Assembly (NCBI RefSeq): GCF_029338515.1
Contig: NZ_CP119988.1
Span: forward strand, 1,674,001-1,738,000
DNA length: 64,000 nucleotides
Direction: 5' to 3'
Origin: Haloglomus litoreum
GTDB lineage: Archaea; Halobacteriota; Halobacteria; Halobacteriales; Haloarculaceae
Shown: positions 56,201 to 58,102 of the stretch, piece by piece
Numbering within the stretch: the stretch's first letter is position 1
Layout of the letters: every line of letters starts with the position of its first letter
The notes under the pieces: model-generated
What the model saw: the letters and a program-made list of their open reading frames with translations, nothing else
Told to the model about the DNA's origin: nothing
Databases searched by the model: none
Translations under genes and position numbers: made by a program

Positions 56201-56273
56201 TAGCCCTGAGCGGATTCGAACCGCTGTCAGAAGCTCCAAAGGCTTCTATGATTGGCCACTACACCACAGGGCT
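56201..56273 (-). tRNA. tRNA-Gln (anticodon UUG)
   Basis: A 73-base tRNA. Acceptor arms AGCCCTG and CAGGGCT pair with discriminator A, the D arm has GTGTAGTGGCCAATCAT, the anticodon stem GAAGC/GCTTC closes loop CTTTGGA with anticodon TTG, and the T arm AGCGG/CCGCT carries TTCGAAT. No intron and no encoded CCA. The layout is typical of haloarchaeal tRNA-Gln. Confidence 0.95.
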
Positions 56274-57383: not shown

Positions 57384-57955
57384 GTCCTCTCACCCCGGCA
57401 GCGGACCGGTTCTGACATACCCGCCAGTCGGGAAGCCGCGGACTTAAGCGGTTCCCTCGTGGGGTCGGAACGTTCGGCCGACACGACGGAGCAGAGGCTC
57501 GGGGTGCGGAACTGGAAGAAGCCGGAGTCGGCACGGATAGGACCCGGACGGGAGACGTTTTCCACGGCCCGTACGGCCCTTCCGACTTCCGGGCGCTTTA
57601 GCCGGGCTCGCACCGGCCTGCCGTGAGGCTTTCGTCGGGCTCTCACCGACCCTTGCGCTCGTGTCGTCGGTTTCGCGAACGTCGTTCACACGACATCCGG
57701 TACTTGGCCTTCGCGTCCAGCCATCCGGATGGCCGGATGGTGGGCCGCTGTGGTTCTCCTTCGAGGCGTTCTCCTCATGGCCCTGTTACGGACCCTTTGG
57801 TGGTTGCCCCCAACTCGACCTCGCTATCGCTTCGATCGAGTCGTCCGGTGTGTCCCCGTGGACTCCGGCAGCAACCCGTCATTGGGTCCGGGTGGAGATA
57901 AATCCTTGGGTACCGGTAACACACACCAAGGGCGGGATGCCAGGGGTCGGTACGG
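57384..57955. other. 572-base gene-free region in the metal locus
   Basis: No protein gene fits: all frames are short or low-complexity. The part nearest the ferritin-like gene (57384-57500) likely holds its promoter and leader. The part from 57543 to 57892 is predicted to be a structured RNA (see ncRNA). The end next to the rubrerythrin-like gene (57893-57955) has an inverted CCTTGG ... CCAAGG. Confidence 0.6.
57543..57892 (-). ncRNA. Candidate structured RNA of about 350 bases, identity unknown
   Basis: By eye the minus strand can fold as follows. Outer stem 57886-57892 with 57543-57549 (CCCGGAC/GUCCGGG). Inner stem 57871-57876 with 57802-57807 (GGUUGC/GCAACC), containing two hairpins (57845-57868 and 57813-57841). 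Stem 57779-57783 with 57742-57746 (GGGCC/GGCCC), containing a GAGG/CCUC hairpin. A 10-base-pair stem at 57717-57736. Two hairpins, 57634-57650 and 57601-57617, with related 7-base loops UGAGAGC and UGCGAGC, each followed by AAAGC. Unpaired parts are A-rich on this strand only, as in functional RNAs. It lacks the RNase P GGAAAGUCC motif and the SRP helix-8 motif, so it is not assigned. Confidence 0.5.
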
Positions 57956-58102
57956 TCACTCGCGCGGGACGGAGATGTTGCGGACGTTGCCGCCGCAGTC
58001 GGGGCAGGCGCCCTGATGGCCGTCGACGACGACGCGGCCGCTGCAGTCGTAGCACTCGTAGGTCGTCTCGCTGGCCGTGTACGGGTCGGTGAAGTGGCTC
58101 AC
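57956..58102 (-). CDS. Rubrerythrin-like small zinc-ribbon protein
   Basis: A 48-residue protein starting GTG: VSHFTDPYTASETTYECYDC, then SGRVVVDGHQGACPDCGGNV and RNISVPRE. Two CxxC pairs form a rubredoxin/rubrerythrin-like metal site. The haloarchaeal DUF7129-like family is, as I recall, called rubrerythrin-like. A TATA-like ATATATT is about 60 bases upstream. It precedes the structured RNA and the ferritin-like/DtxR pair, all on the same strand. Confidence 0.85.
   Translation of the reverse strand: MSHFTDPYTASETTYECYDCSGRVVVDGHQGACPDCGGNVRNISVPRE

Follow-up and report, generated by a model that had tools for sequence, protein, structure and literature searches.

In the analysed window, a 64,000-nucleotide stretch of the Haloglomus litoreum genome, a gene-free interval lies between a small gene at 57959-58102 and a ferritin-like/DtxR pair. 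The small gene, called rubrerythrin-like in the initial annotation, encodes a 48-aa DUF7129 protein (PF23455); on the plus strand it is overlapped by a sub-threshold match to the Rfam family Ms_AS-1, probably a chance hit. Judged from sequence and conservation, the minus strand of the interval, from ~57875 to 57515, is a genuine structured RNA gene, and its own predicted promoter and end suggest that it is independently transcribed. Its features are given below in window coordinates (P4, P6b and P7 were placed via alignment columns).

57897-57902, minus strand: TATA box TTTATC, ~25 bases upstream of the likely start
57515-57875, minus strand: structured RNA, ~360 nt, with predicted ends; match to model R3 at 57532-57763 (143 bits)
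57852-57863, minus strand: P0, 5' hairpin GUCC/GGAC
57842-57848, minus strand: P1 5' strand CCGGACG, partner 57550-57544, closing the RNA; covarying
57544-57550, minus strand: P1 3' strand CGUCCGG; covarying
57812-57841, minus strand: P2 hairpin arm (57841-57834 with 57819-57812), whose sequence varies between relatives
57763-57810, minus strand: P3-P4-P5 arm of the RNAalifold consensus (P3 57810-57806/57767-57763, P4 57800-57799/57774-57773, P5 57794-57790/57783-57779)
57755-57759, minus strand: P6a 5' strand GGAGA, partner 57555-57551; double-sided changes in 5/5 pairs
57551-57555, minus strand: P6a 3' strand UCUCC; same covariation tests as its 5' strand
57742-57748, minus strand: P6b 5' strand GCGGCCC, partner 57570-57564; double-sided changes in 6/7 and 7/7 pairs
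57564-57570, minus strand: P6b 3' strand GGGCCGU; same covariation tests as its 5' strand
57557-57563, minus strand: conserved unpaired GGAAAAC between P6b and P6a, near invariant among relatives
57716-57737, minus strand: P7, variable hairpin (57737-57729 with 57724-57716); double-sided changes in 7/9 and 8/9 pairs
57706-57709, minus strand: P8a 5' strand GGCC, partner 57578-57575; in relatives GGCC/GGCC, GACC/GGUC, GUCC/GGAC
57575-57578, minus strand: P8a 3' strand GGCC; same covariation tests as its 5' strand
57676-57704, minus strand: P8 hairpin (57699-57690 with 57685-57676) with a GNRA-type cap; double-sided changes in 6/10 and 9/10 pairs
57601-57650, minus strand: two T-loop-type hairpins of the P9 region (57650-57634 and 57617-57601), with loops UGAGAGC and UGCGAGC that fit UGNRANN
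57512-57542, minus strand: tail and terminator-like end, a hairpin followed by CTTCTTC; in relatives a CCGCG-UUCG-CGGG hairpin followed by UUUU

Predicted promoter, predicted 3' end and covarying fold

The transcript likely starts near 57875, as deduced from the spacing of the TATA box, and a T-rich TATA element is kept at the same place in the homologue alignment (GATTGACTTAT, AATGATTTAT and GTTTATG). The 3' end would be closer to 57515 than to 57543. Relatives of the RNA measure ~250-460 nt. Their alignment displays conserved blocks, frame-breaking indels, the upstream TATA element, a downstream hairpin with a T tract, and surrounding genes that differ. A protein-coding gene was rejected, as no reading frame is conserved and a covarying structure is found instead.

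The initial annotation had proposed that 57543-57892 encodes a functional structured RNA on its minus strand, and folding, homologues and covariation all bear this out. That strand folds at z -3.84 against dinucleotide shuffles (0/100 as good), the plus strand at only -1.28. A DNA search found the region conserved in relatives, namely in 4/4 genomes of the genus and 48/146 of the family. For the helices P6a to P9, a MAFFT alignment of 39 sequences shows double-sided changes in 29/38 pairs. In this alignment 91% of the cells are paired, compared with 35-46% for slid versions of the structure, the 91% being biased upward because these very sequences had served to draw the structure by eye. The count of double-sided changes is less biased, and reaches 218 cells vs 66 in shuffles. 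An alignment of 64 sequences gives 35/38 double-sided pairs and 92.9% of cells paired; the 39-sequence test is the cleaner one, because the larger alignment was fitted to the covariance model. The observed counts of double-sided pairs were attained by 0/500 shuffles.

In the resulting architecture, P1 encloses P2, the P3-P4-P5 arm and P6a-P6b; P6a-P6b leads to P7 and P8a, and P8a encloses P8 and P9. P1 occurs in relatives as CCGGACG/CGUCCGG, CUGGACG/CGUCCAG, CUGAACG/CGUUCAG, UCGGACG/CGUCCGA, UCGGACA/UGUCCGA and CCGAACA/UGUUCGG. By eye, it also covaries in a second class of the phylum (CUGGGUG/CACCCAG, CUAGGUG/CACCUAG), and P0 changes in step among relatives (GAGUC/GGACUC, CCCGC/GCGGG). Double-sided changes in the P3-P4-P5 arm of the RNAalifold consensus fall chiefly in P5. 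At the base of P8, AGUA (57704-57701) stands opposite GAA (57674-57672), both nearly invariant among relatives; at the sequence level this is characteristic of a sarcin-ricin (G-bulged) motif, which the RNA may adopt in three dimensions.

Two hairpins, each followed by AAAGC and with the 7-base loops UGAGAGC (57645-57639) and UGCGAGC (57612-57606), were confirmed as first described. Both, as well as many relatives, carry the T-loop sequence signature (a UNNRANN heptaloop on a stem), and by this signature we classify them as T-loop-type. The module is present in 0-3 copies in relatives and so is not essential.

The closing stem had been proposed to pair 57543-57549 with 57886-57892. Its 3' strand stands, while the conserved, covarying 5' partner is 57848-57842. 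A switch between two mutually exclusive pairings had also been suggested and is not supported: 57884-57892 is situated upstream of the likely start, in the gap that follows the TATA box, and its sequence is unconserved even within the genus, and the other proposed partner, 57790-57795, belongs to the conserved hairpin P5. The alternative pairing through 57884-57892 thus looks like chance.

It had been left open whether the RNA was independent or a leader or 3' UTR, and the independent RNA is now clearly favoured, because its own predicted promoter and terminator-like end persist while the neighbours change by lineage. That the RNA serves the adjacent ferritin-like/DtxR or DUF7129 genes as a long leader, a switch or a 3' UTR would fit two arrangements: in Haloglomus the ferritin-like gene begins ~130 nt downstream in the same orientation, and two second-class genomes have a K+-channel gene after the RNA, likewise co-oriented. 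However, across 100 loci the neighbours differ and no same-strand downstream gene is conserved; downstream genes vary by lineage and are often convergent, the RNA has its own TATA element and terminator-like end, and the alternative pairing is not conserved. We consider such a cis-acting role barely credible; since the neighbouring genes vary, the RNA is not the leader of the ferritin/DtxR pair, and the supposed link to a metal/redox locus falls for want of conserved neighbours across relatives. In the two second-class loci (L161:3981-5156 and L162:5001-6536), the channel gene downstream of the RNA is of the TrkA type. Several genomes have tRNA genes no more than ~1.5 kb away from the RNA (56201-56273 in the window; L138:3405-3488; L094:3675-3758; L163:5686-5772), which may be chance or shared synteny.

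Distribution and known RNA classes

Two covariance models were searched with fast filters: R1, of the 129-nt middle domain, matches 108/391 haloarchaeal genomes, and R2, of the overlapping 3' half, matches 109/391. As both models pick nearly the same genomes, the patchy distribution is probably real. The RNA occurs in 41/86 haloarchaeal genera (carriers include Haloglomus, Haloarcula, Halapricum, Halosimplex, Halorarius, Halorussus, Halorubellus, Haloprofundus and Halomicrococcus) and, with model R3, in 3/3 genomes searched of the second class. A giant version, with the P6b-P9 module repeated ~6 times in tandem, is found in two genomes of genus g89 (G400 and G422; L094:4055-4834 and L107:3289-4068).

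A few copies are on haloarchaeal megaplasmids, all unannotated. Natrinema sp. SYSU A 869 has copies on two megaplasmids (NZ_CP082248, locus L216, and NZ_CP082247), one of them next to an IS630 transposase. Genome G283 bears a second copy (L130:4001-4211) without a recognisable 5' domain, possibly truncated. A virus origin was considered, and the exact 3' motif pattern was unmatched in IMG/VR. Genus g40 is probably Haloferax, judging from a Haloferax mediterranei plasmid that aligns to 98% of a plasmid stretch of one member (G343), with 81.6% identity.

Searches with 4227 Rfam 15 families at the gathering cut-off returned only tRNAs in the window and in nine homologous loci, and within the RNA permissive scans gave only chance-level matches. 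The earlier view that it is neither RNase P RNA nor SRP RNA was confirmed: RF00373 and RF01857 do not match the region, and the true genes are elsewhere in the genome (RNase P RNA at G000:C1:982054-982419, 143.7 bits; SRP RNA at G000:C1:2803754-2804069, 172.3 bits). With archaeal RNase P RNA it shares an archaeal origin, a length of about 350 nt, many helices and a possible tie to tRNA-type recognition, but sequence and fold differ. OLE, GOLLD, ROOL, HEARO and raiA are long, richly structured RNAs of patchy distribution whose function was not known at discovery. The present RNA resembles them in these traits of length, structure and patchiness; it differs in being archaeal and linked to HARP (see below), in having its own P1-P9 fold with optional T-loop hairpins, and in matching no Rfam family. 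We found no description of it in open-licence full texts, and the noncoding RNAs annotated in Haloferax gibbonsii are limited to those of the 7S, RNase P and H/ACA types.

Association with HARP and Rnl3

When all ORFs around ~100 RNA loci were clustered, one protein turned up next to the RNA repeatedly, in 7 genera from 4 families, and no other neighbour was common to several families. This protein matches TIGR03875 ("RNA ligase partner") and PF08745 (PIN_5). It is HARP, the homologue of Aquifex RNase P, a protein-only RNase P that occurs in certain bacteria and archaea (PMC12153264, PMC10941002).

HARP was strongly matched in 161/391 haloarchaeal genomes. Both RNA and HARP are present in 103 genomes, the RNA alone in 6, HARP alone in 58 and neither in 224 (p = 4.6e-44). 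Collapsing to genera, the only way in which kinship was handled, leaves 40, 1, 17 and 28, respectively (p = 1.2e-9). The 3/3 RNA-carrying genomes of the second class also carry HARP. Among the six exceptions with RNA alone, four genomes are just 82-89% complete; the near-complete G144 and G190, with RNA and no detectable HARP, count against a partnership with HARP. So do the 58 HARP genomes without detectable RNA, because of which HARP cannot need the RNA everywhere; a search of 40 of them with R2 and lax filters gave E values of 0.16 or worse only.

Adjacent RNA and HARP genes were seen in 18 genomes, which represent 8 genera and 5 families, and their relative orientation varies: convergent in g8, g21 and g54, divergent in g30 (Haloprofundus), g33 (Halorussus), g65 and g73, and once as a HARP-Rnl3-RNA cluster (g36, G402). 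Named examples are on Halorussus plasmids. By our own estimate, chance would yield ~0.1 adjacencies per ~100 genomes of ~4 Mb. The genomic link between RNA and HARP is strong. In Haloglomus litoreum itself the genes are 1.6 Mb apart, which counts against a partnership.

The RNA could instead have a function of its own, for example as a stress RNA or a scaffold in extreme halophiles, and be co-inherited with HARP with no physical interaction. Both have a patchy distribution centred on extreme halophiles, HARP has a known link to salinity (PMC12153264) and in most genomes the two genes are far apart. Yet the genes became neighbours in two or more arrangements, in different families, the link persists at the genus level and in the second class, and neighbours other than HARP are not shared between families. 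We regard mere co-inheritance as rather unlikely.

HARP is reported to co-occur with, and to be encoded next to, the RNA ligase Rnl3 (PMC12153264). The RNA is equally patchy in halophilic archaea, and its adjacency to HARP resembles that of HARP and Rnl3 (PMC12153264). The HARP-Rnl3 system is described as protein only, with no mention of a dedicated RNA, whereas the RNA described here tracks HARP even without Rnl3. We searched Rnl3 (TIGR01209) in 80 genomes. It is present in 24/24 tested genomes with HARP and no detectable RNA and in 25/33 tested haloarchaea with both, and absent in 20/20 tested haloarchaea without HARP. Among the tested haloarchaeal genomes with HARP, none lacks both Rnl3 and the RNA. 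T-loop presence, tested against Rnl3, gave 11/24 vs 1/10 (p = 0.06), a difference on which we base no claim.

As Rnl3 circularises RNAs in Thermococcales (PMC9014305, PMC12153264), the RNA might be a circularised substrate of Rnl3, associated with HARP only as the known companion of the ligase. The 25 genomes with all three genes and the HARP-Rnl3-RNA cluster of G402 would agree with this. Nevertheless, 8 of the 33 genomes with RNA and HARP lack Rnl3, among them the tested member of g40, probably Haloferax, so that the RNA follows HARP itself; and the presence of Rnl3 in all 24 tested HARP genomes without RNA means that Rnl3 follows HARP, not the RNA. An Rnl3 substrate is very unlikely.

A proposed partnership with HARP

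The best explanation in our view, and one that we consider probable, is that the RNA represents a new class of highly structured, independently transcribed noncoding RNA that works together with HARP, as native substrate or ribonucleoprotein partner of the archaeal enzyme. Recognition by HARP would resemble that of pre-tRNA, in which the enzyme reads the elbow and the 5' end. HARP could trim the RNA, which would then be a dedicated substrate, or the RNA could hold, recruit, regulate or inhibit HARP as its ribonucleoprotein partner.

In the HARP dodecamer of six dimers, one dimer contacts the T loop while a neighbouring dimer cuts the 5' end (PMC10941002). The parallel with the optional T-loop hairpins and the ~six-fold modular RNA is suggestive, no more. 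T-loops cannot be the sole contact, because minimal versions of the RNA have no T-loop hairpin. It is tempting to propose, as a more tentative idea to which we give somewhat less than even chances, that HARP oligomers bind the modular RNA as a tRNA mimic, the RNA being the native substrate, scaffold or regulator of HARP.

Deletion of HARP in Haloferax volcanii and Methanosarcina mazei had no effect on growth, and its archaeal function has been called unclear (PMC10941002, PMC12153264). The Haloferax volcanii result (PMC10941002) counts against a partnership. Hundreds of archaea keep HARP despite having an RNA-based RNase P (PMC10941002, PMC12153264).

With a conserved structured RNA that co-occurs with HARP, often next to its gene, there is now a concrete candidate for the molecule on which the enzyme acts. 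As the genus that is probably Haloferax appears to carry the RNA, the proposal could be tested in a standard haloarchaeal model. If it is true, the supposedly RNA-free archaeal RNase P would have a dedicated RNA.
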